DNA from: Oceanibaculum pacificum
GTDB taxonomy: Bacteria; Pseudomonadota; Alphaproteobacteria; Oceanibaculales; Oceanibaculaceae
Direction of reading: 5' to 3'
Length of the DNA: 64,000 bases
NCBI RefSeq assembly: GCF_001618175.1
Contig: NZ_LPXN01000116.1
Location: 1-64,000 of the forward strand
The position numbers were made by a program, and so were the translations under genes. The notes beneath the pieces are model-generated. The model saw only the letters and a list, made by a program, of their open reading frames with translations, searched no databases and was not told the origin of the DNA. Shown piece after piece: positions 5,845-38,960 of this stretch (the stretch's first letter is position 1; every line of letters starts with the position of its first letter).

Positions 5845-5897
5845 AGGTGGGGTATTCGAGGGCTTGAGCAAGAAAGGGATCCATCGGAGTACAGGCC

Positions 5898-6332: not shown

Positions 6333-6367
6333 AAAGATACAAGGACGTCTGACGTGTGCACTCTGCG

Positions 6368-6706: not shown

Positions 6707-7615
6707 GATGCCCTCCGCATTGCGGCGCGGGGGTCATAGCCGTGCGTCTTGCGCCATTCCTTCATAAATGCGTCTAACTCAGGGTCGATTTTTTCCGGCA
6801 ATGCAACGTCCAATACTACGCGCTGGTCGCCGGCCGCGCCGCGTCCGGTCTTTATGCCTTTGCCCTTTAGTCGCAGAACGTCTCCAGTCGTTGAGCCCTT
6901 CGGCACTGTCATCATGACCCGGCCGGTGATAGTCGGTACTTCGACCTTGGCGCCCAGAACCGCTTCGTAGAGGGTAAGTGGGAGGTTGACGACGATATCG
7001 TTGCCGTCACGGCGAAAGACGGGGTGGGGTCTAACGCTGACTTCTATCAGGGCATCGCCAGGCGCGCCGCCGCCGACACCCGGCCTGCCCTTTCCCCTAA
7101 GCCTCAGCGTGCTGCCGTCGCGTGTGCCAATCGGGATATTCAGGTCGAGTGCGTTCCCGTCCGGGAAGGTGATTCGGCGGCGGCTTCCGTTCACCGCATC
7201 CAGGAAATCGACTTCAAGGTGATAGTGGATATCCTCGCCACGGGCCCGGAAGTTCCGGCTTGTGCCGGTCCTTTGCCCGAAGAAATCCGAGAAGACATCC
7301 GAAATATCTTCGAACCCGCCCATGCCGCCGGCCGTGCTGTAGCGGTTGGCTCGCCCCGCGTCGGCGTAGTGACGGTAAAAGTGCTGTTCGGCTCGCTCCG
7401 CTCCGGAAGCGTCGATCTCACCCCGGTCATAGCGGGCACGCTGCTCGGGGTCGCTTAGGAGATGATAAGCTGCCGAGACCGCCTTGAATCGGCTTTCCGC
7501 TTCCTTGTCACCGGGGTGTAGGTCCGGATGGAGCTCCTTCGCGCGCCTGCGATAGGCTTTACGGATGTCGTCCGAGGAAGCATCGCGTTCGACGCCGAGA
7601 ATTTTGTATGGGTCC

Positions 7616-7629
<14 letters not shown>
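6703..7629 (-). CDS. cbpA: DnaJ-type co-chaperone CbpA
   Basis: A 308-aa type II Hsp40. The J-domain is at residues 5-70 (DPYKILGVERDASSDDIRKA) and has the essential HPD in ELHPDLHP, which stimulates DnaK ATPase. A Gly/Phe-type linker follows, then two C-terminal beta-sandwich substrate-binding domains (GNALDLNIPIGTRDGSTLRL, GRVMMTVPKGSTTGDVLRLK). There is no zinc-finger region, which separates it from DnaJ proper. It overlaps the ftsH end by 14 nt and cbpM by 4 nt. It probably works with the neighbouring Hsp20 proteins in keeping client proteins soluble. Confidence 0.93.
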
Positions 7630-9496
<1,867 letters not shown>

Positions 9497-9694
9497 GACG
9501 ACGTTACCGCAATAAGGTCGACCTTCCAGCTGCACCCAACTTGTCAATACAACGCTGCCGCTGGCGGGCTCTGAAACAAGAATCGGGCACTGGAGCGCGA
9601 AGCGGTTTTGCCCGCACGTCCCATTGCGGTGAAGACGAGATACACCCCTTCCCGCCAACCTCGCTATGTGGTTCGCGTAAGCTTCGCGATGAAG

Positions 9695-9751
9695 TGCGGT
9701 GAAGCCGAGGCCTTTCTCGGTAGCCGGAAGCGTGACCTCGGCTTCACCGCA
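9695..9751. repeat. 16-bp perfect inverted repeat upstream of ftsH
   Basis: TGCGGTGAAGCCGAGG at 9695-9710 is exactly repeated in inverse orientation at 9736-9751, with a 25-nt spacer. It lies between the end of the SPW-repeat gene and the ftsH start, both on the minus strand. There is no T tract on either side, so it is a stable RNA hairpin or protein-binding dyad rather than a clear intrinsic terminator. It could partly terminate the SPW transcript or sit in the ftsH leader. Confidence 0.7.
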
Positions 9752-9775
9752 TTGCGGCCCGCTTTCGCGGTCGGT

Positions 9776-10177
9776 TTACGCTGTCGCTCGCCAGCCTCCG
9801 CTGCGTGTCTCAAGGGCCTTCCAGCTGGAACTGATGGCGATAAGCGCCCCGAGAACTATGGCACTCCACATCGCCTCGGCCAGCGCCACATAGCCGAGTA
9901 GCCAGGGCGAGACCACCAGCCAGATGCCGACGGCGGCGTTCAGCCATTCTTCCCACTCCGCGAAGCGCAGCAGCGCCGCGACCGCCAGGGCAGCGACGAC
10001 CAGCGCGCTGACCCACGCGTTCCAGGCTGCCGCCGGGACACCGGTCGTCTCGGTAACGCCCGCGCCTTCCGCGGAGCCCGCGAACTGGAATACCCACGGG
10101 GTAGTGAACAACAGGACGGCCAAGACAATATTGGCCCAATCCTGCCAACCCGACTTCTGGTCGATTTTCAGAGCCAT
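9776..10177 (-). CDS. SPW-repeat membrane protein
   Basis: A 133-aa integral membrane protein with two copies of the SPW repeat, seen as FTTPWVFQF and VVSPWLLGY, and about four transmembrane helices (residues about 14-30, 50-66, 73-90, 96-114). SPW proteins are short bacterial and archaeal membrane proteins of unknown function, comparable in position to the HdeD-like proteins of stress-tolerance islands. An AAGGAGG sequence precedes its ATG on the minus strand. It is divergent from the hsp20 cluster across 471 bp. Confidence 0.85.
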   Translation of the reverse strand: MALKIDQKSGWQDWANIVLAVLLFTTPWVFQFAGSAEGAGVTETTGVPAAAWNAWVSALVVAALAVAALLRFAEWEEWLNAAVGIWLVVSPWLLGYVALAEAMWSAIVLGALIAISSSWKALETRSGGWRATA

Positions 10178-10506
10178 GTCCTTACCTCCTTCACCTGAGC
10201 ACGGACCCAGCCGCGCTCATTTCAGCCGGCATCGAGATAGGCGCGGGAATACAGCTGTTCAAGATCTACAGCCGCCCCGTGAGAATCGGTTCGAGCGAAG
10301 GTACTTGACAAGCTGCAACTCCATACCAAATCGGTGATCGCGGGATGCCACTGACGGGTCCCGGGGCAAGAAATGGCAAGTCCGACCGGCAGGGTTGGGC
10401 GCCAGCACGTTGCTTCGCAACGGAAGGATGTGCGCCTAGTCATTGATTGTCGCTCGGCTCGGTTGTAGCCGGGCCGCGTCGAACAAAGTCGGGCCTTGTC
10501 CATCTC

Positions 10507-10649
10507 TTGCTCTTCCTCCCGGCCCGGCAGGACACCCCCGCACCTTGAGGTTCCATAATCGGCAGCGAGCGATCGCGCGCATGCGCTTGCGCGTGCAGAA
10601 GCGATGCGCGGTTGGCCGAGAGGGATTGTGAACGAAGGAGGAAGAGCAA
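10507..10649 (+). promoter_or_regulatory. 13-nt inverted repeat covering the hsp20 ribosome site
   Basis: TTGCTCTTCCTCC at 10507-10519 is the exact reverse complement of GGAGGAAGAGCAA at 10637-10649, which is the Shine-Dalgarno region plus the first base of the start codon of the first hsp20 gene. If both lie in one transcript, pairing would hide the ribosome site, as expected of a heat-responsive or ligand-responsive leader. It could instead be an inverted duplication of a leader. No promoter could be placed in the surrounding 471-bp divergent spacer, so whether position 10507 is transcribed is unknown. Confidence 0.45.
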
Positions 10650-11089
10650 TGCAGCTGACACAGATGGGCCGCACCGGCTGGGATCCCTTCGCCGAGATGC
10701 GGCAGCTTCAAGCCGATATGAACCGGCTTTTCGACAACGCCGGGGTGTTTCCCGCGGCGCAGGCCTATCCGCCGGTCAATCTCTGGATCGGCGACAGCAG
10801 CGTGGTCGTGACTGCGGAGCTGCCGGGCCTCTCCGCCGAGGACGTGGAGCTCACCATCCGCGAGGACACGCTCACCATTAGCGGCGAGCGGCGCCAGGCG
10901 GAAGAAGCCGAACACGCTGGCTGGCATCGTCGCGAACGACCGCACGGCGTCTTTTCGCGCACGATCGGCCTGCCGTTCCGGGTCGATCCGGACCAGGTCC
11001 AGGCGAAGTTCGACAACGGTGTGCTCGAGGTCGAGATGCAGCGCCCCGAGGCCGACCGTCCGCGCAAGATCGCGATCAACGGCAACTAG
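10649..11089 (+). CDS. hsp20: Small heat-shock protein, Hsp20 family (first of three)
   Basis: A 146-aa alpha-crystallin-domain chaperone. The N-terminal arm has WDPFAEMRQLQADMNRLF, typical of class A bacterial sHSPs. The crystallin domain spans about residues 40-140 (ELPGLSAEDVELTIREDTLT, FDNGVLEVEMQR), and a KIAI tail supplies the I-x-I motif used for oligomer docking. I chose ATG 10649 because AAGGAGGAAG precedes it. sHSPs hold unfolding proteins without ATP for later refolding. It is followed 22 bp later by a second hsp20. Confidence 0.95.
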   Translation: MQLTQMGRTGWDPFAEMRQLQADMNRLFDNAGVFPAAQAYPPVNLWIGDSSVVVTAELPGLSAEDVELTIREDTLTISGERRQAEEAEHAGWHRRERPHGVFSRTIGLPFRVDPDQVQAKFDNGVLEVEMQRPEADRPRKIAINGN

Positions 11090-11111
11090 CAGCGAACGAA
11101 AGGAGGCAACC

Positions 11112-11516
11112 ATGGCCCAGGAAATGACGACCACGGCGAAACGCGAGGTGGTGCCCGCAGAGCAGGGCGAGGTGACTCGCGCCGCGGTGGTCTACAGGCC
11201 CGATACCGACATCTACGAGACCGAGGACCAAGTGGTCGTCGTCGCGGACATGCCGGGCGTCGCGCCCGCGGACGTTGACGTCAACCTGGAGCGCCGCGTC
11301 TTGACCATCCGCGGTAATTTCCATCGGCAGGCGCACGACGGTTATCGGCTCGTGCATGCCGAGTATGGCGAAGGCGATTACGAGCGCGTCTTCACCCTCT
11401 CCGAGGAGATCGACCGCGACCGTATCGAGGCCAGTCACAAGAATGGCGTTCTGACGCTGAAGATGCCGAAGGCGGAGTCGGCCAAGACCCGGAAGATCAC
11501 GGTCAAGGCCGCCTGA
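11112..11516 (+). CDS. hsp20: Small heat-shock protein, Hsp20 family (second)
   Basis: A 134-aa Hsp20 with a short N-terminal arm (VPAEQGEVTRAAVVYRPDTD) and a crystallin domain (VVVADMPGVAPADVDVNLER, HKNGVLTLKMPKAES), ending KITVKAA with the I-x-V docking motif. AAAGGAGG lies just before ATG 11112. The shorter arm suggests smaller or mixed oligomers with its neighbours, but that is inference. It is part of a three-gene hsp20 array. Confidence 0.93.
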   Translation: MAQEMTTTAKREVVPAEQGEVTRAAVVYRPDTDIYETEDQVVVVADMPGVAPADVDVNLERRVLTIRGNFHRQAHDGYRLVHAEYGEGDYERVFTLSEEIDRDRIEASHKNGVLTLKMPKAESAKTRKITVKAA

Positions 11517-11554
11517 CACCATCGGCGCAGAGCAAGCAAGAGAAGGAGGTTGAA

Positions 11555-12061
11555 ATGCAGATCAGTGATCTCATTCCCTGGGGCCGCGACCGCAATGACG
11601 TCGCGCGGCAGCAAGGGGACAGCGACAACCCGCTGTTGAGCCTGCAGCGGGATATCAACCGCGTCTTCGACGACTTCTGGAGCCGGTTCGACCGTTCCGC
11701 CGGCGCTTCGAACGGACTGGTGTCGGTAACGGGACCGCGCACCGACGTGACCGAGACCGACGAGGCCGTCGATGTCTCCGTCGAGCTGCCGGGTATGGAC
11801 GAGAAGGATATCGATGTCAGCCTGAGCGATGACGTCCTCACCATCCGGGGCGAGAAGAAGGCGGAGCGGGAGGAGAAGAAGAAGGGCTACTACCTCGCCG
11901 AACGCAGCTACGGCTCCTTCTACCGGAGCATTCCCCTGCCGCCGGGCGTCGATTCCGAGAAGGCCGAGGCGCAGTTCAAGAAGGGCGTCCTGACGGTGAC
12001 GCTGCCGAAGACGCCGGAGGCGCAGGCGAAGGTTCGGAAGATCGAGGTGAAGGCGTCGTGA
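11555..12061 (+). CDS. hsp20: Small heat-shock protein, Hsp20 family (third)
   Basis: A 168-aa Hsp20 with a long N-terminal arm (DLIPWGRDRNDV, LQRDINRVFDDFW), a complete crystallin domain (ELPGMDEKDIDVSLSDDVLT, KKGYYLAERSYGSFYRSIPL, FKKGVLTVTLPKTPE) and a KIEVKAS tail with the I-x-V motif. GAGAAGGAGG precedes the ATG. It is the most conserved-looking of the three and resembles the sHSPs found in heat-resistance islands. A strong hairpin follows its stop codon. Confidence 0.95.
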   Translation: MQISDLIPWGRDRNDVARQQGDSDNPLLSLQRDINRVFDDFWSRFDRSAGASNGLVSVTGPRTDVTETDEAVDVSVELPGMDEKDIDVSLSDDVLTIRGEKKAEREEKKKGYYLAERSYGSFYRSIPLPPGVDSEKAEAQFKKGVLTVTLPKTPEAQAKVRKIEVKAS

Positions 12062-12067
12062 AGCGGT

Positions 12068-12105
12068 GCACAGCCTGACGGCCCAAGGGCCGTCAGGTTC
12101 TGTGC
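12068..12105 (+). terminator. Strong hairpin between the hsp20 array and otsA
   Basis: CCTGACGGCCC at 12074-12084 pairs perfectly with GGGCCGTCAGG at 12087-12097, and GCACAG at 12068-12073 pairs with CTGTGC at 12100-12105 across a TT bulge. This makes a 17-bp stem 6 nt after the hsp20 stop. No run of T follows, so it may be a partial terminator, an mRNA-stabilising hairpin or an attenuator ahead of otsA. Confidence 0.7.
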
Positions 12106-12179
12106 CCATGCTCCGCGGGTCGTCCGACCACGTCAGGAAAGCGAGGTGGGACGGCCGATGCGAGATCATGGAGGCCGTG

Positions 12180-13874
12180 ATGTGCAGATCGGAGGAACCA
12201 CAAGACAAACTGAATGCACTTCGCCAGACGCGGCGCGAAGAGACGGTTTTGACGGGAAGAAAGGCGGCCGATCGCCTCGCTCCCGATGAATCCGGGCTCC
12301 GTTTGCCGGCGAGCCTCGCTGCGTGCGGCCGCGCGGCACGGTCAGGCGGCGACGCGTCGACCTTGCGTCTGGTCATCGTTTCCAACCGCGTGGCGGATCC
12401 TGACCAGGACGGGCAGGCCGGGGGCCTGGCCGTCGCACTGGACGAGATCTTCCGCGTTCGACGCGGCCTTTGGTTCGGATGGAGCGGCCAGGTTCGTCGC
12501 GACGCCGATGCCCGCCCCGCCAGAAATCGAAGGGCCGAGAATGTTGATCTCGTGACGCTCGATCTGACGCCGCGGGAGTATCAGGACTGCTATCTCGGCT
12601 ACGCCAACCGCTGCTTGTGGCCGATCCTTCACTATCGGACCGACCTGGTCGAGTTCCGGCACAGCTATGCCGAGGCCTACCAGGCCGTCAACCGGCGCTT
12701 CGCGGAAGCTCTGGGCCCGTTGCTGCGAGAAGACGACCTCATCTGGGTCCACGACTATCACTTGATTCCGCTGGCGCGCGAGTTGCGCCGCTTGGGATAC
12801 CGACAGCGGATCGGCTTCTTCCTTCACGTTCCCTTCCCGCCGAAGGAAGTGTTCGCCTCTCTGCCCGGGTATGAGGAGATTCTCAGCGCGCTCGTCGCCT
12901 ACGATCTCCTCGGCTTCCAGACGGAGACGGACAAGGCGTGCTTCCTTTCGACCATGGAAAGGCTGGTGGGTGCGCGTCAAGACGGGCACGGCCAGATCGA
13001 CGCGTTTGGCCAATCTGTCCAAGTCGGCGTCTTTCCGGTTGGCATCGACGTCGATGGTTTCGCCGAGCTGGCCACTTCACCGAAAGCGCGCCACCACGTG
13101 GAAAGGCTGCTGGGCGCGCTTCAGGATCGCGACCTCATCATCGGCGTTGATCGCCTCGACTACACGAAGGGCTTGTCGCATCGCTTTGCCGCCTACCGGA
13201 GCCTTCTCGAGCGCGTCCCTGAGTGGCGGAACAAGGTGTCGCTGCTGCAGATCGCGCCCTTGAGCCGGCAAGAGCTTGGCCCGTACACCGTCACGCGCGA
13301 GGAACTGGACCGGCTCAGCGGCGAGATCAACGGGGTTTTCGCCGATCTCGACTGGACGCCGATCCGCTACCACGTGAAGCCACTCGCACGATCCACACTC
13401 GCGGCGTTGTTCCGCGCCAGCCGGGTCGGCCTTGTCACGCCTTTGCGCGATGGGATGAACCTGGTCGCCAAGGAATTCGTCGCCGCGCAAGACCCGGCCG
13501 ATCCCGGCGTCCTCGTCCTGTCGCGCTTCGCCGGCGCGGCGGAGGGGATGAAGGAAGCGCTCATCGTCAACCCGCACGACGTGGACGGCACTGCCGACGC
13601 GATCAACCAGGCCCTGACCATGCCGCTCGACGAGCGCCTGGCTCGGCATGACGCCCTGCTGCAGAGACTCCGGAAACAGGATGCACAGGCCTGGCACCGC
13701 GCGTTCATAGACCGGCTCGCTGCCGGGAAGCCGGCATCTTCGGCCTTCCCCTTGGAAGCCGATGCCCCGGCGCCGATCACGGCAGCGCTCTGCAACGGCT
13801 CGCAACCGACTTCTTATCGCGACAGGGAGACACCGTCCAATGACCAGCTCTTAGACCAGGAGTACGAAGCATGA
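12180..13874 (+). CDS. otsA: Trehalose-6-phosphate synthase
   Basis: A GT20 enzyme that makes trehalose 6-phosphate from UDP-glucose and glucose 6-phosphate. Conserved blocks are present: [55 protein letters not shown], and [16 protein letters not shown]. The protein is 564 aa from ATG 12180, which has GGAGG 5 nt upstream; family members usually start close to IVSNRVA, so 50-60 residues are an unusual leader. No phosphatase (otsB) is visible, so the chromosome must supply it. Its stop overlaps the protease start (ATGA). Trehalose is a compatible solute and protein stabiliser, fitting the stress cargo. Confidence 0.92.
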
Positions 13875-15256
13875 CGAGAGCCAACTCATCGATTCTCAAG
13901 GCGATAATTATTGTGGTCGCGCTTGCCATGCCGTGGCGCGCGGACGCTGTCGCGCCGCTCGCGGGAGAAGGCGATGGCCGCGGTATCCCCACCGTTGCGC
14001 CGTTGCTGGAGAAAGTAACGCCCGCCGTGGTGAATATCTCGGTCGTCTCCGAGCGGCCGATGGAAAGCAATCCCCTTTATCAGGATCCCTTCTTTCGGCG
14101 CTTTTTCGATCTCCCCGAACTGCCTCGCAGCAGGCCGCAGATGAGCGCCGGATCGGGCGTGATCGTCGACGCCGCAAAGGGGTACGTGCTCACCAACCAT
14201 CACGTGGTCGATAAGGGAGACCAGATCGTCGTCACCCTGAAAGACCGGCGCCGGTTCGACGCCGAGCTCGTCGGCAGCGATGCGGAAACCGACATCGCCT
14301 TGCTGAAGATCGAACCGGAGGCGCTCACGGACGTGCCGCTTGGCGATTCCGACCGGCTGAAGGTCGGAGACTTCGTGGTTGCCGTCGGCAACCCGTTCGG
14401 CCTTGGCCAGACAGTCACCTCGGGCATTGTCAGCGCGCTCGGCCGCGGCGGCCTCAACGTGGAGGGCTATGAGGACTTCATCCAGACCGATGCCCCGATC
14501 AACCCCGGCAATTCGGGCGGCGCGCTCCTCACGCTGGACGGCCGCCTCGTCGGCATCAACACCGCCATCATCGCGCCTGCCGGCGGCAACGTCGGCATCG
14601 GGTTCGCCGTCCCTGTCAACATGGCACGCGCCGTCATGGAGCAGCTGATCGAGTATGGAGAAGTCCGCCGCGGCCGGCTCGGCGTGATGATCCAGGATCT
14701 CACGCCCGATCTCGCCGAGGCTCTGAGGCTGCCGCGGACCGCCGGTGCCGTCATCGCCAGTGTCGAAGAGGACACGCCGGCCGAGCGGGCAGGGCTCAGG
14801 CCAGGCGATATCGTGGTGGCGGTGAACGGACGTGCGGTCGAGAACTCCGCCGACCTGCGAAATACCGTCGGGCTGACGCGCGCGGGCTCGGAGGTGGAGC
14901 TCACCCTGTTGCGCGATGGAAGAGAAGTCAGCGTTACCGCTCGTCTGGGGCCGGGGGATCGGGTGTCGGCGGCGCCATCCGGCAGGATCGGCCGCGCGCT
15001 CGCCGGCGCCGAGTTCGAGGAGCTCAAGCCGGGAATGAACGGCTACGGGGTGGTCGATGGCGTCGCCGTGTCGCAAGTGGCGCCCGGCAGTCCCGCCGCG
15101 CGAGTGGGGTTGCGTCCGGGTGACGTGATCATGGCCGTCAACCGGGAGCCGGTGAAGTCAGTCGAAGACCTTTCCCGTGCGATCGACAAGGCTGGACCGG
15201 TCATCGCGCTGAACCTTTACCGGAACGGCGCCGAATTGTTCGTCGTCGTCCGCTGA
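13871..15256 (+). CDS. DegP/HtrA-like periplasmic serine protease
   Basis: A 461-aa Do-family protease. An N-terminal signal sequence (about 1-27) exports it. The trypsin-like domain has the triad His111 (LTNHHVV), Asp141 (DIALLKI) and Ser215 (NPGNSGGALL). Two PDZ domains follow, about 255-345 (ASVEEDTPAERAGLRPGDIV) and 370-455 (VAPGSPAARVGLRPGDVI). These proteases degrade or refold misfolded envelope proteins. The ATG overlaps the otsA stop by 4 nt, and the KefB-like gene follows 17 bp later. A DegP homologue is also part of described stress-tolerance islands. Confidence 0.95.
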   Translation: MTRANSSILKAIIIVVALAMPWRADAVAPLAGEGDGRGIPTVAPLLEKVTPAVVNISVVSERPMESNPLYQDPFFRRFFDLPELPRSRPQMSAGSGVIVDAAKGYVLTNHHVVDKGDQIVVTLKDRRRFDAELVGSDAETDIALLKIEPEALTDVPLGDSDRLKVGDFVVAVGNPFGLGQTVTSGIVSALGRGGLNVEGYEDFIQTDAPINPGNSGGALLTLDGRLVGINTAIIAPAGGNVGIGFAVPVNMARAVMEQLIEYGEVRRGRLGVMIQDLTPDLAEALRLPRTAGAVIASVEEDTPAERAGLRPGDIVVAVNGRAVENSADLRNTVGLTRAGSEVELTLLRDGREVSVTARLGPGDRVSAAPSGRIGRALAGAEFEELKPGMNGYGVVDGVAVSQVAPGSPAARVGLRPGDVIMAVNREPVKSVEDLSRAIDKAGPVIALNLYRNGAELFVVVR

Positions 15257-15273
15257 CCTGTCCGGCTGAAACG

Positions 15274-16533
15274 ATGGACGATCATCGATTCTTCCTGGAG
15301 CTGGTGGCGGTCCTGGTTTCGGCGCGTCTGTTCGCGGCCGTCGCCGTCAAGGCGGGCGCGCCGGCGGTGATCGGCGAGCTGGTTGCTGGCGTCATTCTCG
15401 GCCCCAGCCTGCTCGGGTGGTTGGAGGCGGGCGAGATTCTAAGGCTTCTTGCCGAGATCGGCGTCACGCTCCTGCTCTTCGAGGTCGGCCTCGAGACGGA
15501 TGTTGCGAGGCTGGTCCGCACGGGAGGCAAGGCCGTGACCGTCGCTGTTGCAGGCCTTCTTCTTCCGCTCGGCTTAGGCTTTGCGCTTGCCTACTGGGTT
15601 TTCGGCACCTCGTTCCTCGTCGCGCTCCTGGTCGGCGGCACGCTCACCGCGACCAGCACCGGCATAACCGTCCGTGCGCTTTCGGAGTTGGGCCTCCAGA
15701 AAAGCCCGGAGGCGCAGATCGTGATCGGCGCGGCAGTGGTCGATGATGTGCTCGGCGTCCTGCTGCTCGTGCTCGTCCATCAGTTTGCCACTGAGGGTGC
15801 CGTCCATTGGACCGATACAGCCCGCGTTTTCGTCTTTCTTGTGGGCTTCTTTGCCTTCGCGCCTTTCATTGCCCATCCGCTCACCTGGGCAATCCGCAGA
15901 CTTGATGAGATGGGGCGCATCCCCGGCTTGGTGCCGACCGTCATCGCGGCGCTCGTGTTCTTCTTTGCGTGGCTCGCGACACTGGTCGGTGCTCCCGCCA
16001 TCCTCGGGGGCCTTGCCGCGGGCCTTTCGCTTTCTCGTCGCTTCTTCTTGCCGCTCGGGGTCGTCCCCCGGATGGACCGGGACTTTGCGCACAAGGTCGA
16101 GGGGCAAATGAAGCCAATCATCCATCTCTTCACGCCGTTCTTCTTCGTGGTCGTCGGTCTCTCGCTGGACCTGAGCCTGGTCCGCTGGGACGAGCCCTTC
16201 GTCTGGACGTTCTCTGCGTGCCTGCTTGTCGCAGCTGTGCTCGGCAAGATGATCGGGCCCTTGCTGATCCCGGCGCCATGGCCGTCCCGCGTGTTGATCG
16301 GCACGGCGATGGTGCCGAGGGGTGAGGTCGGTCTGATCTTTGCCGAGCTCGGTCGCGGCGCGGGTGTCTTCACGAGCGACGTCTACGCTGTCATGGTCTT
16401 CGTGATCGCCCTTACCACGTTGCTCCCCCTCTTTCTTTTCAGGTGGCTGCACGCCCGCGCGCTTCGCGGCGAGGAGGCCTTGCTTGCCCTTGATGTGGCG
16501 ACGCCAGCGGCCGCTGGTAACGACAAGGAATAG
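15274..16533 (+). CDS. KefB-like cation:proton antiporter
   Basis: A 419-aa CPA2-family membrane protein with about 12-13 predicted helices. Typical blocks are GELVAGVILGPSLLGWL near the N-terminus, EIGVTLLLFEVGLE, GGTLTATSTGITVRALSELG, and GAAVVDDVLGVLLLVLVH with the ion-binding Asp pair. It stops after the transport domain and lacks the C-terminal RCK/TrkA-N domain of KefB/KefC, so glutathione-adduct gating is unlikely. It probably exchanges K+ or Na+ for protons under stress. KefB-like transporters occur in stress-tolerance islands. Confidence 0.9.
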   Translation: MDDHRFFLELVAVLVSARLFAAVAVKAGAPAVIGELVAGVILGPSLLGWLEAGEILRLLAEIGVTLLLFEVGLETDVARLVRTGGKAVTVAVAGLLLPLGLGFALAYWVFGTSFLVALLVGGTLTATSTGITVRALSELGLQKSPEAQIVIGAAVVDDVLGVLLLVLVHQFATEGAVHWTDTARVFVFLVGFFAFAPFIAHPLTWAIRRLDEMGRIPGLVPTVIAALVFFFAWLATLVGAPAILGGLAAGLSLSRRFFLPLGVVPRMDRDFAHKVEGQMKPIIHLFTPFFFVVVGLSLDLSLVRWDEPFVWTFSACLLVAAVLGKMIGPLLIPAPWPSRVLIGTAMVPRGEVGLIFAELGRGAGVFTSDVYAVMVFVIALTTLLPLFLFRWLHARALRGEEALLALDVATPAAAGNDKE

Positions 16534-16537
16534 GACA

Positions 16538-17491
16538 ATGAGCGCCCACGCCCTGCACAAGCTGCGCAACATTGTCCATTCGGCGCTTCTGATTGTCGGG
16601 ATGGCGCTGATCGTGAGCGCCTGCGCGTGGACCCTTTGGGGGACGGAAGGGATCCTTTGGGGGCTCGCCGGGGCGATCCTCGCGATGGTGCTTTCGCCCG
16701 CGGTGCCGCCGGCTCTCGTACTTTCACTTTATCGAGCGCGGCCCGTCGGCCACGCGGAGTTGCCGGACGTCTATGCCGCCTTGGCGGAACTTGGCCGGCG
16801 GGCCGACTTGCCGGCACCGCCCCGCCTTTACTACGTGCCAAGCGCGGTGCTCAACGCCTTCGCCGTCGGCAACCGGAGCACCGCAGCAATTGCGGTGACG
16901 GACGGCATGTTGCGCAACCTGACCTTCCGTGAGCTTGTCGGTGTGCTCGCGCACGAGGTCAGCCATATCGCGAACAACGACTTGTGGGTCATGAATCTTG
17001 CCGATGCGATGAGCCGGGTCACCTCGCTGATGTCCTATCTCGGCATCGTTTTGCTGGCGGTGAATCTTCCGCTGATCTCGGCCAACGGCAGTGTGGTGCC
17101 CTGGTTGCTCGTGCTGCTCTTGATTGTTGCGCCGACGCTCATGGACTTGCTTCAGCTCGCGCTTTCGCGGGCGCGTGAGTTCGATGCCGATCTCGACGCC
17201 GTCAGGCTGACAGGCGAGACGGAGGGGTTGGCATCAGCGCTTGCGAAACTCGAGAGCTGGCAGGGGCGCTTCTGGGAAAGGGTGCTCTTCCCCGGTCGGC
17301 GCGTGCCGGACCCGTCTCTTCTTCGCACCCATCCGCCGACCGAGGAGCGCATTCGTCGACTGATGAGGCTCCGCGACGAAATATCGTCGCCGCCGCTGTC
17401 GTCCCCGGCAACCCGCGTGGTGGTCGTGCCGGCCACGATCATGCCGGTTGCGAGATCACCCCGGTACCGCTGGCCGGGCATCTGGTACTGA
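16538..17491 (+). CDS. htpX: M48-family membrane metalloprotease, HtpX-like
   Basis: A 317-aa protein with two N-terminal membrane helices (about 15-35 and 40-65), the zinc-binding HEVSH motif around residue 140 (GVLAHEVSHIANND), two further helices (about 165-215), and a downstream acidic third ligand region (SRAREFDADLDAV). This is the HtpX layout: a membrane-bound quality-control protease that works in parallel with FtsH. ATG 16538 is 4 bp after the antiporter stop with AGGA just upstream. The C-terminal 30 residues are Pro/Val-rich and non-conserved. Confidence 0.9.
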   Translation: MSAHALHKLRNIVHSALLIVGMALIVSACAWTLWGTEGILWGLAGAILAMVLSPAVPPALVLSLYRARPVGHAELPDVYAALAELGRRADLPAPPRLYYVPSAVLNAFAVGNRSTAAIAVTDGMLRNLTFRELVGVLAHEVSHIANNDLWVMNLADAMSRVTSLMSYLGIVLLAVNLPLISANGSVVPWLLVLLLIVAPTLMDLLQLALSRAREFDADLDAVRLTGETEGLASALAKLESWQGRFWERVLFPGRRVPDPSLLRTHPPTEERIRRLMRLRDEISSPPLSSPATRVVVVPATIMPVARSPRYRWPGIWY

Positions 17492-19369: not shown

Positions 19370-20095
19370 ATGCATCGCATCTTCCAAAGATTCATCGACG
19401 ATATTTGGGAAAGCGTCGACCTCCAGGGCCTGCAGGACGCCATGGCCGAGGCTGCGGCCGCCCTCGACCTGCGCTGTTTCGCCTATTTGTCCATGCCCCA
19501 TCGGCGCGGGGCGGACGCACACGTGATCTCTACCTATCCGGCCGCCTGGACCGGCCATTACGTCGAAAGCCACTACGAGCGCGTCGACCCGGTTATTGTC
19601 AGGGCCGCGCGTGCGCCGGATCCGTTCGAGTGGGGCCACGGCGTGGATCTGAACGAACTCACACCGCCGCAGCAGCGGTTTTTCGACGAGGCCGCCGGCT
19701 TCGGCATCCGCTGCGGCTTCACGATCCCGATCCACGACGGCCAAGGGCCGGTCGCGGCCATTACCTTCGCCGCCGACCAGCGCCATCCAGCGTTCCGCCG
19801 CAGCATCGAGACCCATGCGCCGGTCCTGCAGCTCATGGCGATGTACTTTCATGCCCATGCCCGCCGCAAGCTCGTCGCCGACCGCGTCGTCGACGGTGCC
19901 GCTCTGTCGCCGCGCGAGTTCGAGTGTCTCCAATGGGCCGCCAGGGGCAAATCCGCCTGGGAAATTGGGTCCATCCTCGGCATCTCCCGCCGCACGGTCG
20001 CGTTTCACCTGGATAACGCGAGGGCGAAGCTCGACGTCCGCACGGTCTGCCAGGCCGTTGCGCGCCTGTCCGCATCCAGGCCAGCATCGCACTGA
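19370..20095 (+). CDS. traR: LuxR-family quorum-sensing activator, TraR-like
   Basis: A 241-aa regulator. The N-terminal autoinducer-binding domain has the conserved aromatic and aspartate residues of acyl-homoserine-lactone receptors (AAWTGHYVESHYERVDPVIV). The C-terminal LuxR helix-turn-helix spans about 175-235 (LSPREFECLQWAARGKSAWE, ILGISRRTVAFHLDNARAKL). In ICEMlSymR7A-type elements TraR with AHL activates traI and the fseA genes. The reading frame is intact. A lux-box-like dyad follows 15 bp after the stop. Gene order traR-traI-fseA-qseM-qseC matches that system. Confidence 0.93.
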   Translation: MHRIFQRFIDDIWESVDLQGLQDAMAEAAAALDLRCFAYLSMPHRRGADAHVISTYPAAWTGHYVESHYERVDPVIVRAARAPDPFEWGHGVDLNELTPPQQRFFDEAAGFGIRCGFTIPIHDGQGPVAAITFAADQRHPAFRRSIETHAPVLQLMAMYFHAHARRKLVADRVVDGAALSPREFECLQWAARGKSAWEIGSILGISRRTVAFHLDNARAKLDVRTVCQAVARLSASRPASH

Positions 20096-20110: not shown

Positions 20111-20134
20111 CACCCTGTGCAACTGCACAGGGTG
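20111..20134. promoter_or_regulatory. Lux/tra-box-like dyad upstream of traI
   Basis: CACCCTGTGC at 20111-20120 and GCACAGGGTG at 20125-20134 form a perfect 10-bp inverted repeat around AACT. The core CTG-N10-CAG matches the spacing of LuxR-type operators. It lies 58 bp before the traI start and after the traR stop, where an AHL-TraR site is expected. The same hairpin followed by TTTCTT could also slow traR transcription. Confidence 0.65.
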
Positions 20135-20191: not shown

Positions 20192-20824
20192 ATGATGCAG
20201 CTCATCACTCCCGACCGGTACGGCGAGTTCGTAGAGGATCTCGCCGAGATGTACCGCCTGCGCTACCGCGTCTTCAAGCAACGGCTCGACTAGGACGTCG
20301 AGGTCAGCGGCGACATGGAGATCGACACGTTCGACGCGCTCCATCCCGCCTATCTCCTTCAGCGTGCGCCCGACGGCCGTGTCCGCGGCTGCGTGCGGCT
20401 GCTGCCGACCTCGGGCCCGACCATGCTCCGCGACACCTTCGCCCCGCTGCTGGCCGGCCACCCGGCACCATCGGACCCGGCCGTCTGGGAGAGCAGCCGG
20501 TTTGCGCTCGACGTCGGACACGAGGCTGGCGACCCCGCGAGCGGGATCGCCCGGGCGACCTACGAGCTCTTCGCTGGCATGATCGAGTTCGGACTCGCCC
20601 GCGGCCTTTCGGACATCGTGACCGTCACGGATCTCCGCATGGAGCGCATCCTTCGCCGCGCTGCGTGGCCGCTGCGGCGTCTTGGCGAGCCGCAGACAAT
20701 CGGGGGCATGCGCTCGGTGGCCGGCTACCTCGGGGTCTCGCTGGAAGCACTTGCCAAAGTTCGGCAGGGCGGCGCGCTCCGCGGACCGGTCCTCTGGGCA
20801 CCGGTGGCTTCGGCCGCCGCGTAA
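20192..20824 (+). pseudogene. traI: Acyl-homoserine-lactone synthase with internal amber stop
   Basis: A LuxI-family gene that reads MMQLITPDRYGEFVED from ATG 20192 (GGAGG upstream) to RVFKQRLD, then hits TAG at 20291-20293. The same frame continues as DVEVSGDMEIDTFD through to TAA at 20824. The stop replaces the invariant Trp34 of the LuxI motif; one G-to-A change (TGG to TAG) accounts for it. The other signature residues are intact: Arg and Phe before the stop, Glu/Asp/Asp in EIDTFD, and Arg in CVRLLPT. As written it makes only a 33-aa peptide. Without readthrough the element cannot make its own AHL and TraR would depend on foreign signal. Confidence 0.88.
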
Positions 20825-20931: not shown

Positions 20932-21751
20932 ATGATAGAGCAACCGAACACCGGCCCCGTTGCTGGATGGCGCCATCGCGCGGCCTATGGCTACACCGCG
21001 TCGTTGCCGCGACGCGGCTGGGCCTGGGAGTTCCTTCGGCGCGACGGCGCCTACCGGCGCGCCTGGGCGCACGCGTCGGCCGCCGTCGCGGTCGAAACAC
21101 CGTTGCCGAACCTTACAGTGATGTCAGCACGGTCCGATCTGCGCGAGATGGCGCATTGGGGGCTGTTTTTTCGCTGACGCGCCTGACCAGAATGCGACCT
21201 CGGCTGCCGTCTTCTGGAACCCCTGCGTGTGCCCGCATGTGCTTCCCGCGATCGCGCTCGTTGCGGATTCACGTCTCGGCGCGGAGCGGTTCACCCTGCC
21301 AGACATTCCGTGCCAAACCACCGTGCTGCTGACGTCCGATGGGCGCCAGCACCTCTCGGTCATGGAGGCGGGCCACACGCTGCAGCTCAGCGTCACGGGG
21401 ACGAGCCTATTGCAGCCGGTGCGGCTGATGACCGATGCCGTTCTCCAGTCTCAACAACTCCGCGCTCGCTTTCACGCGCTCGAATGCCTCGCCTGCGTTA
21501 ACGGCCGCGGCCGGTTTCCGAGCCACCGGCGCATCGAGCCCTCCGGGCGGCGCCTGCGCGTGGTGCTGCAAGCGCTCGACGGCTGGCTCGCTAACGCGCC
21601 GTACCGCGAGATTGCCGTGGCGCTCTTCGGCGAGGCGCGCGTCGACGCCGACTGGACCGACCCCCGGGATCATCTCCGCGACCAGGTGCGTCGCGCCGTC
21701 CGCCGTGGTCGGCAGCTCATGCGCGGCGGATACCGCAAGTTTCTCCTCTGA
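20932..21751 (+). CDS. fseA: FseA-like excision activator, read by +1 frameshift
   Basis: Two overlapping frames encode one protein. Frame one (20932-21177) gives an 81-aa DUF6499-like part (LPRRGWAWEFLRRDGAYRRA) ending MAHWGLFFR-stop. Shifting +1 within T6 at 21166-21171 continues as FFADAPDQNATSAAVFWNP and on into a DUF2285 domain ending at 21751. In Mesorhizobium ICEMlSymR7A, msi172 and msi171 have this split and are fused into FseA by +1 slippage of tRNA-Phe from UUU to UUC; FseA then activates the excisionase gene rdfS. The same UUU-UUC context, domains and neighbours are present. An indel in the homopolymer cannot be excluded from one sequence. Confidence 0.85.
21166..21177 (+). promoter_or_regulatory. 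Predicted +1 programmed frameshift site (TTTTTTCGCTGA)
   Basis: Frame zero reads CTG TTT TTT CGC TGA. Moving tRNA-Phe forward one base in the second Phe codon, from UUU to UUC, gives GCT GAC and opens the long DUF2285 frame. The site is followed by an Arg codon and a UGA stop, which would favour pausing. This matches the mechanism described for FseA. Confidence 0.75.
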
Positions 21752-21759: not shown

Positions 21760-22023
21760 TCAGGCGTCCTCGAGCAGTTGCCGGTAGCCCGAACGTGTCA
21801 TCCAGTGCGCCCGCGCGAGGTGGTCCTCCCAGCAGCGACGGGCGGCGGCATCGGTATCCGGGTCCCGTCCAAGCACCAGCCGGGCGACCTCCTGCCAGTC
21901 CGCTCCGTCCGCTTCGGCGTCCAGCAGCCGGAGATAGGTGACGAAATGGGCCTCGTCGTAGGGCGTGATCCGCTCCGCCCAGGGGACTTGGTTGGCTATG
22001 TGGGAAGTCCGATTGCTCTCCAT
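21760..22023 (-). CDS. qseM: Quorum-sensing antiactivator QseM (DUF2285)
   Basis: An 87-aa protein made almost only of a DUF2285 fold (PYDEAHFVTYLRLLDAEADG, ADWQEVARLVLGRD, ARAHWMTRSGYRQLL). In ICEMlSymR7A, QseM binds both TraR and FseA and blocks transfer. It is encoded convergently to fseA, with 8 bp between stops, and divergently to qseC, the same arrangement as in that element. I chose ATG 22023 (MESNRTSHIANQ); ATG 22071 would add 16 unconserved residues. The control region upstream carries two tandem dyads, probably QseC operators. Confidence 0.82.
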   Translation of the reverse strand: MESNRTSHIANQVPWAERITPYDEAHFVTYLRLLDAEADGADWQEVARLVLGRDPDTDAAARRCWEDHLARAHWMTRSGYRQLLEDA

Positions 22024-22101
22024 CTCAGCCCGATCCGTACTGCCGCCTGCCGGACATGGCATGCGGGCCATTGCACATGCGGTCCATCACGAGGGGTACG
22101 A

Positions 22102-22173: not shown

Positions 22174-22416
22174 ATGTCCAAATCTCTTCGTACACCTCGC
22201 CAACAACGACTGCAGGAACTTCTCATACAGCTGCGTAAGGACAAGAGCCTCACACAAGCTGAGGTGGCCGTGCGTCTTGGACGGCCTCAGTCTTTCGTTG
22301 CCAAGTACGAGGGCGGTGAACGCCGGCTTGATGTGCCGGAATTCATCGAGGTCAGCGAAGCGCTCGGCACAGACCCCCTCGACATCCTCAAAGAGCTCTG
22401 CCGGGTCCGTCCTTGA
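22174..22416 (+). CDS. qseC: QseC-like XRE-family repressor
   Basis: An 80-aa helix-turn-helix protein of the Cro/C1 type (LTQAEVAVRLGRPQSFVAKY, EGGERRLDVPEFIEV). In the Mesorhizobium system QseC controls qseM and its own gene from two operators. It starts at ATG 22174, 40 bp from the second dyad. No Shine-Dalgarno sequence is visible before the ATG, so it may be translated from a leaderless or near-leaderless mRNA. Divergent from qseM. Confidence 0.82.
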   Translation: MSKSLRTPRQQRLQELLIQLRKDKSLTQAEVAVRLGRPQSFVAKYEGGERRLDVPEFIEVSEALGTDPLDILKELCRVRP

Positions 22417-31405: not shown

Positions 31406-31738
31406 ATGGCAGCCATCGGATACGTCAACCGCCAGGCGGACGGCTCCTACAAGGGCTTCATCAACACCCTCAGCATCCGGCGCAGCGTCGTGCTCGTGGC
31501 GAACCGCGACAAGGACGCCGAGAACCAGCCCGACTTCCGGGTCTTCACCGACGACCGCGACCGGGTGGAGCTCGGCGCCGGCTGGAAGCGGGTGGGCCAG
31601 AACTCGGGCAACAGCTACGTCTCGCTGAGCCTGGCCGCCCCGGAATTCGGGCCGCGCAAGCTCTACGCCAACCTCGGCCGCGCCGCCGGGCAGGACGATC
31701 CCGACACCTTCGCGATCATCTGGAACCCGGTCGACTGA
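31406..31738 (+). CDS. DUF736 protein (first copy)
   Basis: A 110-aa protein of the DUF736 family (GYVNRQADGSYKGFINTLSI, DFRVFTDD, YVSLSLAAPEFGPRKLYANL). These small proteins are markers of alphaproteobacterial conjugative elements and often sit beside traF and the relaxase; some are thought to be single-stranded-DNA related, but function is not established. AAAGGAGG precedes the ATG. A perfect terminator follows. A diverged second copy ends the trb operon at 53507. Confidence 0.92.
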   Translation: MAAIGYVNRQADGSYKGFINTLSIRRSVVLVANRDKDAENQPDFRVFTDDRDRVELGAGWKRVGQNSGNSYVSLSLAAPEFGPRKLYANLGRAAGQDDPDTFAIIWNPVD

Positions 31739-31784: not shown

Positions 31785-31906
31785 CCTGTCCCGGAAGGGG
31801 AGGCGAATTCCCGGACGGCCGTTTTCGCCGGTCCCGGATCGCTCCCTCGCGCGCCCATCCTCGCCGTCAACGGCGCGATCCTGCCGGTCGCGACGAGGTG
31901 ACGACG

Positions 31907-32137
31907 ATGAGCGACGACGACCACGAACGCGCCGCCCGCGCGAAGAAAGGCAGCCCCTTCCTCAACACCGCCCAGGCCGCCCATTACGTCGGCCTGTCGG
32001 GCCGCACGCTCGAGAAAATGCGCGTGACCGGCGGGGGGCCGAAGTATCGCAAACACGGCCGCTACGTCCGCTACCACATCGACGACCTCGACGCCTGGTC
32101 CGACTCCCGGTCCAAGGGATCGACCTCCGATGCGTGA
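31907..32137 (+). CDS. rdfS: RdfS-like helix-turn-helix excisionase
   Basis: A 76-aa MerR/excisionase-type winged-helix protein (FLNTAQAAHYVGLSGRTLEK, GGPKYRKHGRYVRYHIDDLD). In ICEMlSymR7A the recombination directionality factor RdfS has this fold and position, just before traF, and is the target of FseA activation. I chose ATG 31907 with GAGG upstream; GTG 31898 is possible. It overlaps traF by 8 nt. The assignment as RdfS rests on fold, size and synteny; no integrase is in the window to pair it with. Confidence 0.75.
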   Translation: MSDDDHERAARAKKGSPFLNTAQAAHYVGLSGRTLEKMRVTGGGPKYRKHGRYVRYHIDDLDAWSDSRSKGSTSDA

Positions 32138-32693
32138 GGATCGGCTCCTGCTGTCCGGCGCTCTGCGGCCGACGCGGCGCCGGCGCGGGCGTCGCCGCCC
32201 GTGCGTCCCGTTCGCCCTCGCGGGCCTCGGGCTCGCGGCGCTCGGCTTCGCGGCGCTTGCCGAGCCGGCGCCGCGCCTGGTCTGGAACGCCAGCGCCAGC
32301 GTGCCCGTGGGGCTCTACTGGGTCAGCCGCGCCGCACCGGTGCGTGGCGATCTGGTGCTCGCCACCCTGCCGCCCGACGCCCGCCGGCTCGCGGCCGACC
32401 GTGGCTATCTGCCGGCCGGGGTACCGTTGGTGAAGCGTCTCGTGGCGATTGCGGACGACGTCATCTGCGCCGTCGGCGATGCCGTCTTCATCAACGGCAC
32501 GTATGTCGCCACGCGTCGCAATCGCGACTCCTTGGGCCGCGAACTGCCGCGCTGGACCGGCTGTCGCACGCTCGCCGCCGACGAGCTGTTCCTGCTGATG
32601 GCCGGTGTCTCCGGCTCGTTCGACGGCCGGTACTTCGGGCCGGTGCGGGGCGCCATGATCATCGGGAGGCTCGTGCCGCTATGGACCGGGTGA
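32130..32693 (+). CDS. traF: TraF-like conjugal signal peptidase (S26)
   Basis: A 187-aa protein with one N-terminal membrane span (about 28-45), a Ser nucleophile region NASASVPVGLYW and a catalytic Lys region PLVKRLVAIADDV, the S26 signal-peptidase-like pattern of TraF. In RP4-type systems TraF cyclises the TrbC pilin after proteolysis. A Cys pair (ICAVGD, TGCRTL) may stabilise the periplasmic domain. It overlaps rdfS upstream and the lytic transglycosylase downstream, forming one operon. Confidence 0.9.
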   Translation: MREDRLLLSGALRPTRRRRGRRRPCVPFALAGLGLAALGFAALAEPAPRLVWNASASVPVGLYWVSRAAPVRGDLVLATLPPDARRLAADRGYLPAGVPLVKRLVAIADDVICAVGDAVFINGTYVATRRNRDSLGRELPRWTGCRTLAADELFLLMAGVSGSFDGRYFGPVRGAMIIGRLVPLWTG

Positions 32694-33331
32694 CCGTCCT
32701 GGCGCTGGGCGCGGTTGTCCTTGCGACTTTTGCCTGCTCGTCCTCCGTCGTCGCTGAACCGGTCACCGTCGAGCAGCGGCTCGACCGCTGGGAGCCGTTC
32801 ATCGCCGAGGCCTTCGCCCGGTTCGCCGTCCCGAAGACTTGGATACGCGCGGTTATCGCGGCCGAGAGCGTGGGGCGAATTATGCTCGACGGCCGTCCGA
32901 TCACTTCATCCGCCGGCGCCATGGGGCTCATGCAGGTGATGCCGGGGACCTATGAAGAGATGCGTCGGCGACATGGTCTTGGTGGCGATCCGCACGACCC
33001 ACGCGACAACATCTTGGCCGGGACCGCCTATCTCCGCGCTCTGTACGAGTGCTTCGGATTCCCCGGCCTCTTCGCCGCCTACAATGCCGGGCCCGGTCGC
33101 TACCAAGAGCATCTGACCGACGGGCGACCGCTGCCGCGCGAGACCCGTGCCTACCTCGCACGGCTCGATCCGTCGCGTCTGGCAACAGAGGCCGCACGGG
33201 CCGCGGAAGCGGATCGGCGTCTCTTCTTCCCTTTGCGCGCGACGGTGACGGACGGTCGCGAGTCGTCGTCGACGATGGCCACGGACAGCCTGTTCGTGCC
33301 CTTGCGTACCGTTCCGGGCGAGGACCGATGA
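32681..33331 (+). CDS. Lytic transglycosylase of the conjugation system
   Basis: A 216-aa secreted SLT-domain protein. The signal sequence covers about 1-25 (LGAVVLATFACSSSVVAEP). The catalytic Glu is in VIAAESVG, followed by SSAGAMGLMQVMPGT and GLFAAYNAGPGRY, the classic SLT motifs. It locally cuts peptidoglycan to let the mating channel assemble (VirB1/TrbN-like role). ATG 32681 overlaps the traF end by 13 nt. Confidence 0.92.
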   Translation: MDRVTVLALGAVVLATFACSSSVVAEPVTVEQRLDRWEPFIAEAFARFAVPKTWIRAVIAAESVGRIMLDGRPITSSAGAMGLMQVMPGTYEEMRRRHGLGGDPHDPRDNILAGTAYLRALYECFGFPGLFAAYNAGPGRYQEHLTDGRPLPRETRAYLARLDPSRLATEAARAAEADRRLFFPLRATVTDGRESSSTMATDSLFVPLRTVPGEDR

Positions 33332-34303: not shown

Positions 34304-36286
34304 ATGAAGGATGACGACGACTTCACGCCGAGGCTCGGCCGGATCCGCGCGCGCGGCAGCAAGCGTGGCCGCCGTTACCTGCACCAGGTGCTGCGGTCGG
34401 TGGCGTTCGCCGGCGGCCGGCCGTCGGCGGGCCGCGGCACCTTCCAGGGCAACCGCATTGGCCGCGGCGCCGGCGTCGGCCGGGTGCTCGCTTCCCGCGA
34501 CCGCTACGCCGCCTACCGGGCGCGCCGGGTGATCGTGAAGTCGCGGATCGTCAAGCTGCAGGGGCAGGGGCGGAAGGCGGCCCAGCTTCATCTCCGCTAC
34601 ATCCAGCGCGACGGCGTCACCCGCGAGGGGTTGCCCGGCGATCTGTATGACGCCGAGTCCGACCGCGCCGACGGCCGGGCGTTCCTTGAGCGCGGGGAGG
34701 GCGACCGGCACCAGTTCCGCTTCATCGTCTCGGCCGAAGACGCCGCCGAGTACGACGAGCTGAAGGGCTTCACCCGCCGGCTGATGCGGCAGATGGAGGA
34801 GGACCTCGGCACCCGGCTCGACTGGGTGGCGGTCGACCATTTCAACACTGGCCATCCCCACACCCACATCGTGCTGCTCGGCCGGGACGATCAGGGCAAG
34901 GACCTGGTCATTGCCCGCGACTACCTCGCCAGGGGCATGCGTGAGCGGGCGGCGGAGATCGTCGGCCTCGACCTCGGGCCGCGGTCCGATCTGGAGATCG
35001 AGCACCGCCTGCGCCGGGAGGTGGAGCAGGAGCGCTTCACCAGCCTCGACCGCGGCCTGCTGCGCGAGGTCGGTGATGACGGTCTTGTCGGGTCCAGCAC
35101 CGTGGACGGCGACGCCTTCCGCCAGACGCTGCGCGTCGGCCGGTTGCAGAAGCTCCGCCGCCTCGGGCTCGCCGAGGAGGTTGGTCCGGGCCGGTGGCGG
35201 CTCGCCGAAGACCTGGAGCCAGTGCTGCGCCGGATGGGCGAGCGCGGTGACATCATCAAGACGATGCACCGGGAGATGGTCCGCGAAGGGCGGGACCGGG
35301 CGACCGCGGACTACGCCATCTACGACCCGGCCGACCCAAAGGCGCGGCGGCTCGTCGGCCGCGTCGTTGCGCGCGGTCTCTCCGACGAGATCGACGACCA
35401 CCATTACCTGATCGCGGATGGTGTCGACGGCCGGGCCCATTACATCGACATCGGCAGGGCGGACGCGACTGACCCATTGCCGGACGGCGCGATCGTCGCC
35501 ATCGAGCCGATGCGGGCCGCGCCGAGAGACGTGGACAGGACTATCGCCGAGATCGCGGACGCGAACGATGGACGATACAGCGTGGACATCCATCTCCGGC
35601 ACGACCCCACGGCGACGGTAACGTTCGCCGAGACGCATGTGCGGCGGCTCGAGGCGATGCGGCGGCGCGGCATGGGCGTCGAGCGGCAGCTGGACGGCAC
35701 CTGGATGATCGCGCCCGATCATCTGGACCGGGCGGCGGCTTACGAACGAAGCCGGGCACAGGCGAGCCCGGTCATCGTCGAGATGCTGTCAGCCGTGTCG
35801 CTCGACCGCCAGGTCGGCGCCGCCGGCGCGACGTGGCTTGACCGCGAGTTGCTCGCCGACACGCCGACGACCCTCCGGGACGCGGGCTTCGGCCGCGAGG
35901 TGCGCCAGGCGCTCGACCGGCGCCGGCAGTGGTTGGTCGAGCAGGAGCTCGCCCGCCAGGAGCACGACCGGATCGTCTACCGCGCCAACATGTTGGGCAT
36001 CCTGCGCCGGCGCGAGCTGACACGGGTCGCGGATCAGCTCTCGGGTGAGCTTGGCCTGCAATACGCCGAGAGTGAACTCGGCCAGCGGATCGAGGGTGTC
36101 TACCGCCGGCGGCTCGACCTCGCCAGCGGCCGGTTTGCGGTGATCGAGAAGGCGCGTGAGTTCACGCTGGTGCCCTGGCGGCCGGTGCTTGAGCGCAACC
36201 TCGGGAAGCGGGTGTTCGGTGTGGCGCGCGGTGATGCGATCTCTTGGTCGCTGGGACGGAAGCGGAACGGACCGGGGCTATCGTAG
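34304..36286 (+). CDS. rlxS: RlxS-like relaxase (VirD2/DUF3363 family)
   Basis: A 660-aa relaxase. The N-terminal relaxase core has a candidate catalytic tyrosine in LHLRYIQRDG (Tyr99) and the metal-binding histidine triad HPHTHIV (His184, 186, 188). The rest is the DUF3363 region typical of rhizobial-type element relaxases (RDYLARGMRERAAEIVGLDL, DEIDDHHYLIADGVDGRAHY, LDRQVGAAGATWLDRELLAD). It nicks oriT and pilots the strand into the recipient. Between it and its coupling protein traG a CBASS island has been inserted; in simpler elements these genes lie closer. Confidence 0.93.
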   Translation: MKDDDDFTPRLGRIRARGSKRGRRYLHQVLRSVAFAGGRPSAGRGTFQGNRIGRGAGVGRVLASRDRYAAYRARRVIVKSRIVKLQGQGRKAAQLHLRYIQRDGVTREGLPGDLYDAESDRADGRAFLERGEGDRHQFRFIVSAEDAAEYDELKGFTRRLMRQMEEDLGTRLDWVAVDHFNTGHPHTHIVLLGRDDQGKDLVIARDYLARGMRERAAEIVGLDLGPRSDLEIEHRLRREVEQERFTSLDRGLLREVGDDGLVGSSTVDGDAFRQTLRVGRLQKLRRLGLAEEVGPGRWRLAEDLEPVLRRMGERGDIIKTMHREMVREGRDRATADYAIYDPADPKARRLVGRVVARGLSDEIDDHHYLIADGVDGRAHYIDIGRADATDPLPDGAIVAIEPMRAAPRDVDRTIAEIADANDGRYSVDIHLRHDPTATVTFAETHVRRLEAMRRRGMGVERQLDGTWMIAPDHLDRAAAYERSRAQASPVIVEMLSAVSLDRQVGAAGATWLDRELLADTPTTLRDAGFGREVRQALDRRRQWLVEQELARQEHDRIVYRANMLGILRRRELTRVADQLSGELGLQYAESELGQRIEGVYRRRLDLASGRFAVIEKAREFTLVPWRPVLERNLGKRVFGVARGDAISWSLGRKRNGPGLS

Positions 36287-38943: not shown

Positions 38944-38960
38944 CGGCGGAGCCCTTTCCG

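Follow-up and report, generated by a model that had tools for sequence, protein, structure and literature searches.

The closest described relative of the locus analyzed here is FseA of ICEMlSymR7A from Mesorhizobium japonicum R7A, in which a DUF6499 half and a DUF2285 half (msi172 and msi171) are joined by a +1 frameshift. Both the logic of the FseA–QseM–RdfS circuit and the mechanism of the R7A frameshift have been published (PMC10359603, PMC5009743, PMC8627217). A +1 frameshift has been reported in ∼61% of 4,709 homologs spread through the proteobacteria, a ribosome-binding-site–like UGGGGG has been remarked at the frameshift site, and the FseA box has been defined as inverted hexamers 16 bp apart beside the rdfS promoter (PMC10359603). 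For RdfS, the known role is that of excisionase alongside the tyrosine integrase IntS (PMC11963761). A serine integrase has been described for one Mesorhizobium ICE, and R7A-type plasmids retain rdfS, perhaps for another regulatory role (PMC8627217). A more distant likeness is to RovC of Yersinia, which also has a DUF6499-like N terminus followed by a DUF2285-like C terminus, but which is encoded in one unbroken frame and controls a type VI secretion system. Outside this family, the RF2 gene prfB shares with the present locus a +1 slip after a Shine–Dalgarno (SD)-like sequence with a UGA nearby; it differs in its slip codon and spacing and in its autoregulatory stop sensing.

We analyzed a 64,000-nt window from Oceanibaculum pacificum (assembly GCF_001618175.1, contig NZ_LPXN01000116.1, positions 1 to 64,000); all coordinates refer to this window unless marked as contig coordinates. 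The assembly is a draft of 181 contigs, and the contig is 99 kb long. With a probability that we put at about 0.9, the window contains an FseA-family gene with a +1 programmed frameshift, carried on an ICEMlSymR7A-type conjugative element with the circuit described for such elements. As such, fseA of the window is a fresh example of a published switch, the frameshift mechanism itself being already known. In addition to the DUF6499 and DUF2285 halves in +1 relation, the element shares with ICEMlSymR7A a TraR, a tra-box–like palindrome, a lone acidic DUF2285 protein (QseM), and QseC, as well as the order rdfS–traF–transglycosylase–rlxS with two inverted hexamers separated by 16 bp in front of rdfS. 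It departs from ICEMlSymR7A in having a traI with a nonsense codon, a tandem TTT TTT slip site, and a contig without a tyrosine integrase. The likeness to R7A is taken from published descriptions. What our analysis shows directly is how the frames are arranged, that the slip site is conserved, which domains are encoded, how the genes are ordered, and that a repeat precedes rdfS.

The frame-0 part of fseA (20932 to 21177, plus strand) extends from ATG 20932 to the TGA at 21175 to 21177, and direct reading gives an unshifted product of 81 residues that terminates in WGLFFR. This part matches DUF6499 (PF20109) above the cut-off, with 44.9 bits over residues 13 to 81, and contains AWEFLRR at residues 31 to 37 (AWEFLRRD, 31 to 38), the counterpart of the AWEFLRRN-like motif in the N-terminal DUF6499 of the FseA family. 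The +1-frame part (21170 to 21751, plus strand) runs from TTC 21170 to a stop at 21749 to 21751 and comprises a middle region followed by a DUF2285/RovC domain (PF10074, 75.7 bits). The computed pI of the DUF2285 part is 11.7; the window gene therefore joins to its DUF6499 the basic C-terminal DUF2285 that marks the family. These coordinates and domains agree with the first-pass annotation, which had described a DUF6499 frame ending CTG TTT TTT CGC TGA and a DUF2285 frame in +1. One +1 step at the T tract, made at the word TTTT (another TTTC occurs farther along the gene), gives a joined FseA of 272 residues with the junction ...WGLFFADAPDQN... RovC (PDB 6xz5, single chain) matches both halves of this joined protein in order, albeit weakly, with a whole-sequence E value of 0.0087. 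On its upstream side the +1 frame is closed by a TAG at 21119 to 21121. Hence, the shift necessarily takes place within the 56 bases from 21122 to 21177, and the obvious slippery run in that interval is the T6C tract.

The frameshift site, TGG GGG CTG TTT TTT CGC TGA, occupies 21157 to 21177 of the plus strand. Its canonical slip codon is TTT 21169 to 21171, followed by C 21172; the preceding TTT (21166 to 21168) is a second possible slip point, from which an identical protein results. For a survey of the family, DUF6499 loci were gathered from alphaproteobacterial and other genomes and plasmids, profiles for the DUF6499 and DUF2285 halves were made from clear cases, and the DUF2285 frame was scored relative to the DUF6499 half. 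The two halves stood in +1 relation in 58 of 84 distinct pairs, the window counted (69%), in one frame in 25, and otherwise in 1; because the members of the set are related and so do not represent independent events, no probability is attached to these counts. The +1 share is of the same order as the published ∼61%, and since ∼30% of the collected homologs need no change of frame, FseA function does not require the shift. Two pairs outside the +1 group, L002 (scored as one frame) and L076 (the pair scored as otherwise), both carry the canonical slip site, which makes a second indel probable in each. Both loci from the same genus as the window, L013 and L016, carry the +1 shift. A one-frame reading of these two was considered and rejected; in each, the long ORF in frame 0 is incidental and the DUF2285 half lies in +1.

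TTT occupies the slip position in 57 of the 58 +1 members; the exception, L023, has TGT-C and may be a decayed copy. The base that follows is C in 53 members and T in 4. By comparison, TTT makes up 33% of Phe codons in the DUF2285 parts of the +1 members and 12% in selected window genes. The Gly of the conserved Trp-Gly is encoded by GGG in 41 of 58, the commonest Gly codon overall being GGC. With DUF2285 in +1 and a TTT after Trp-Gly, fseA of the window belongs to the +1-frameshift subgroup, and the counts support the earlier proposal of an FseA-type slip from UUU to UUC as in R7A. The conservation anticipated for the site is confined to TTT followed by C and does not extend to the six T or the nearby UGA: the T run is just three T long in 47 of the 58 members, TTT TTT C is found in the window alone, and frame 0 meets a stop after as few as 1 or as many as >200 codons, so that a nearby UGA is no family feature. 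When RNA structure downstream of the site was examined as a stimulator, nothing significant emerged (z of +0.8 and +0.6).

Which of the two UUU codons slips in the window bears on a variant of this programmed frameshift, namely, that slippage takes place chiefly at the first UUU (21166 to 21168) and not at the canonical second. Counted from the GGG of the SD-like UGGGGG, the first UUU lies 3 nt downstream, a spacing resembling that of the prfB slip site after its own SD-like sequence; the tandem TTT TTT C is peculiar to the window, and the site of an Azospirillum homolog (L069) permits a slip only at the earlier TTT. However, the canonical TTT-C is intact in the window and is present at the standard spacing in 52 members, the window included, and we consider predominant use of the first codon doubtful. 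As the product is the same either way, protein data do not distinguish the two.

A very different explanation is that the split stems from a sequencing or assembly error or from gene death, the true gene being a one-frame fseA or a frameshifted pseudogene. The draft state of the genome (181 contigs), the homopolymer of six T at the site, and the nonsense codon in neighboring traI all speak for this. Yet an equal +1 relation is found at the same place in 57 other loci of many genera, including complete plasmids, and, apart from the shift, both halves of the window gene are uninterrupted and give good alignments with relatives (45 to 46% identity to Mesorhizobium), which leaves an error or a dead gene very improbable. 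It is family conservation, rather than reads, that disfavors a sequencing error here; on the evidence of the homologous sequences, the split is a family trait.

There is an even slimmer chance that the halves are two separate proteins, with DUF2285 produced by internal initiation at GTG 21227 and the frameshift unnecessary. Indeed, this codon starts a 174-aa ORF holding the entire DUF2285 domain, and annotators list such halves as separate genes. The first start in the +1 frame, however, lies 18 codons past the slip point and beyond an xW motif present in 57 of 58 members, and conservation of TTT at the slip codon is not expected if the halves are independent. GTG 21227, which had been listed as the start of the second ORF, is implausible in that role because 18 codons of conserved region, including a VFW motif, precede it. 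Least probable of all is transcriptional slippage restoring the frame in part of the mRNA: the window does have six consecutive T, unique in the set, but six T is short for polymerase slippage, and the three-T tract of 47 of the 58 members favors slippage by the ribosome.

The +1 programmed frameshift lies among genes of an R7A-type regulatory circuit. Upstream of fseA, an intact traR-like gene (19370 to 20095, plus strand) encodes a LuxR-family regulator with Autoind_bind and GerE domains and a match to the TraR model that falls under the cut-off. It is followed by a perfect 24-bp palindrome at 20111 to 20134, CACCCTGTGCA-AC-TGCACAGGGTG, with 11-nt arms that are 100% complementary and a 2-nt center. 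This candidate tra box ends 58 bp ahead of the traI start codon (ATG 20192), and both traI and fseA lie downstream of it in the same direction. The AHL synthase gene traI (20192 to 20824, plus strand) matches PF00765, but the match is interrupted by an in-frame TAG at 20291 to 20293, and a separate search likewise placed one TAG within it. In alignment, the TAG falls on a conserved Trp of the Variovorax homolog (RLD*DV versus FGWDV), which we take to be one of the invariant residues of LuxI-type enzymes. The listed 169-aa traI ORF, starting at 20315, is without the N-terminal part, its Pfam match beginning at profile position 35. Thus, of the TraR/TraI pair only traR is intact, and traI is probably a pseudogene, unless the draft sequence errs at the TAG. 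With traI apparently dead, the self-produced quorum signal may be lost; two further genes of LuxI type lie on other contigs of the genome and may provide a signal instead.

Immediately downstream of fseA, on the minus strand (21760 to 22071), lies a qseM-like antiactivator gene. Its product is a lone DUF2285 domain (PF10074, 40.7 bits) that is negatively charged, with a pI of 5.1 and a net charge of −6. The contrast between an acidic QseM DUF2285 and a basic FseA DUF2285 is the same as that described previously (PMC10359603). Divergent from qseM is a qseC-like helix-turn-helix regulator gene (22174 to 22416, plus strand; HTH_3, 36.4 bits). Of the neighbors named in the first-pass annotation, traR, qseM, qseC, and an rdfS-like gene are indeed present; traI is also there, but broken.

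The rdfS-like gene (31898 to 32137, plus strand) starts at GTG 31898 or ATG 31907 and encodes an excisionase-family protein with an HTH_17 match of 35.8 bits and a match to the excise domain model of 21.7 bits, under the cut-off. The protein is 63.6% identical to the product of the gene preceding traF on a Sphingobium plasmid. Upstream of it, at 31802 to 31829, direct reading revealed an FseA-box–like inverted repeat, GGCGAA-N16-TTCGCC, the only occurrence of GGCGAA-N15/16-TTCGCC on the 99-kb contig. By sequence, this putative box has the inverted hexamers, 15 to 16 bp apart before rdfS, that define an FseA box. A perfect hexamer repeat by itself is weak evidence in a short GC-rich stretch; four were found versus 0.29 expected from simple shuffling, some of the four deriving from other repeats of the stretch. 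The FseA-box reading is based instead on the position of the repeat and its likeness to relatives. Several related plasmids, for example, from Variovorax and Sphingobium, carry a comparable repeat about as far from rdfS; others have a more divergent repeat before rdfS, and in Ketogulonicigenium no close match was found at that place.

Of these plasmids, Variovorax sp. PBS-H4 plasmid 3 (L064) and the Sphingobium sp. YC-XJ3 plasmid (L062) share with the window not only the place of the repeat but also an rdfS followed directly by traF and a transglycosylase gene. The Variovorax plasmid further has an AHL synthase gene, a split fseA (TTT CCC TGA), and DUF2285 and helix-turn-helix genes directly upstream. 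Unlike in the window, both regions are plasmid-borne and carry other cargo.

In the window, rdfS is followed on the plus strand by a gene for a traF-like S26 signal peptidase (32130 to 32693; PF10502, 78.6 bits) and one for an msi107-like lytic transglycosylase (32660 to 33331, start approximate; PF01464, 60.1 bits). Farther along the same strand are the relaxase gene rlxS (34304 to 36286; NCBIfam NF041267 RlxS, 1038.9 bits against a cut-off of 850), the coupling protein gene traG (41681 to 43729; PF02534, 352 bits), and a trb conjugation cluster (44155 to 53232), in which trbB, E, J, L, F, and I were recognized. Together these genes make up an R7A-type backbone. Two DUF736 genes were also seen, one ahead of rdfS (31406 to 31738) and one after trb (53507 to 53818); such genes are frequently duplicated on elements of this kind (PMC8627217).

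Between rlxS and traG, at 36393 to 40596, lies CBASS-type cargo, with a patatin-like phospholipase effector, a DncV-like cyclase, a small DUF2188 protein, and capH/capP-like regulators. To the right of trb, a HipA-like gene and an adjoining small gene (54791 to 56387) lie beside an IS4/5-type transposase gene (53906 to 54730). The 1064-aa SIR2-domain protein encoded at 56828 to 60022 is matched over its full length by a prokaryotic Argonaute model (PADLOC, 1377.8 bits), and on these matches we assign it as a SIR2–Argonaute defense protein. To the left of the transfer region, 3217 to 17491 holds a run of stress genes, among them a glycogen-debranching–like enzyme, a DnaJ-like protein, FtsH, two Hsp20 proteins, a GT20 trehalose-phosphate synthase, a DegP/DegQ-like protein, an antiporter-like membrane protein, and an HtpX-like protein. 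The run loosely resembles known heat-tolerance islands.

A genome search for tyrosine integrases gave none on this contig and five matches on other contigs, none of them tied to this element; from their length and first residues, two of the five look like ordinary XerC/XerD genes. A single integrase was seen on the contig, a large serine recombinase with Resolvase, Recombinase, and zinc ribbon domains, encoded beyond the window at contig positions 66473 to 68143 (L056:2473-4143). It is a candidate for the integrase of the element. A truncated EamA-like gene adjoins the recombinase gene; a search for its other half found no pairing. To the right of the recombinase is an AbiEi/AbiEii-type pair (L056:5668-7255). 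No informative direct repeat was found between the flanks that would give element ends or attachment sites, no empty site was found, as the order of the flanks is not shared by the same-genus genomes, and there are no tRNA genes within the window or near the integrases.

These observations bear on the earlier suggestion that recoding gates excision of the element. The window has the R7A-like circuit and the FseA-box–like repeat before rdfS. The contig has no tyrosine integrase, however, and because R7A-type plasmids retain rdfS, its presence is no proof of excision. By analogy with R7A, control of excision by the frameshift is possible; control of rdfS and the neighboring transfer genes is better supported. 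Tentatively, the FseA/RdfS switch might serve an element integrated by the serine recombinase. RdfS would then not be the usual tyrosine-integrase excisionase; its main task would be to switch conjugation genes, or it would set the direction of a serine recombinase, which would be unusual for such a factor. We consider this arrangement unlikely on balance.

Most likely, then, the frameshift would limit FseA and hence the expression of rdfS and the adjacent transfer genes. Homology to R7A is our basis for inferring that the slip takes place and is infrequent, that FseA binds DNA, and that QseM counteracts it, as it is for any bearing on excision. Ribosomes in frame 0 would reach UGG GGG CUG UUU UUU CGC UGA, and the majority would terminate at the UGA to release the 81-aa DUF6499 fragment. 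In a minority, tRNA-Phe would move from UUU onto the overlapping UUC, after which reading would continue in the DUF2285 frame, yielding the 272-aa FseA. FseA would then bind the inverted repeat ahead of rdfS and turn on rdfS, traF, the transglycosylase gene, and possibly rlxS, and the acidic QseM would counter it by binding its DUF6499 part.

The locus adds a clear case of a known kind of gene that is often misannotated, being split in two by annotation, and it ties the frameshift to an FseA-box–like repeat within the same element. The family counts, with TTT in 57 of 58 members, show how strongly the slip codon is retained, independently of the published figure. Three points set the window member apart: its TTT TTT C site, a traI that looks broken, and a contig that also encodes a serine recombinase. 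With the first, a naturally occurring variant is at hand to ask which of the codons slips; the latter two together provide a test of the FseA switch working without its usual partners.
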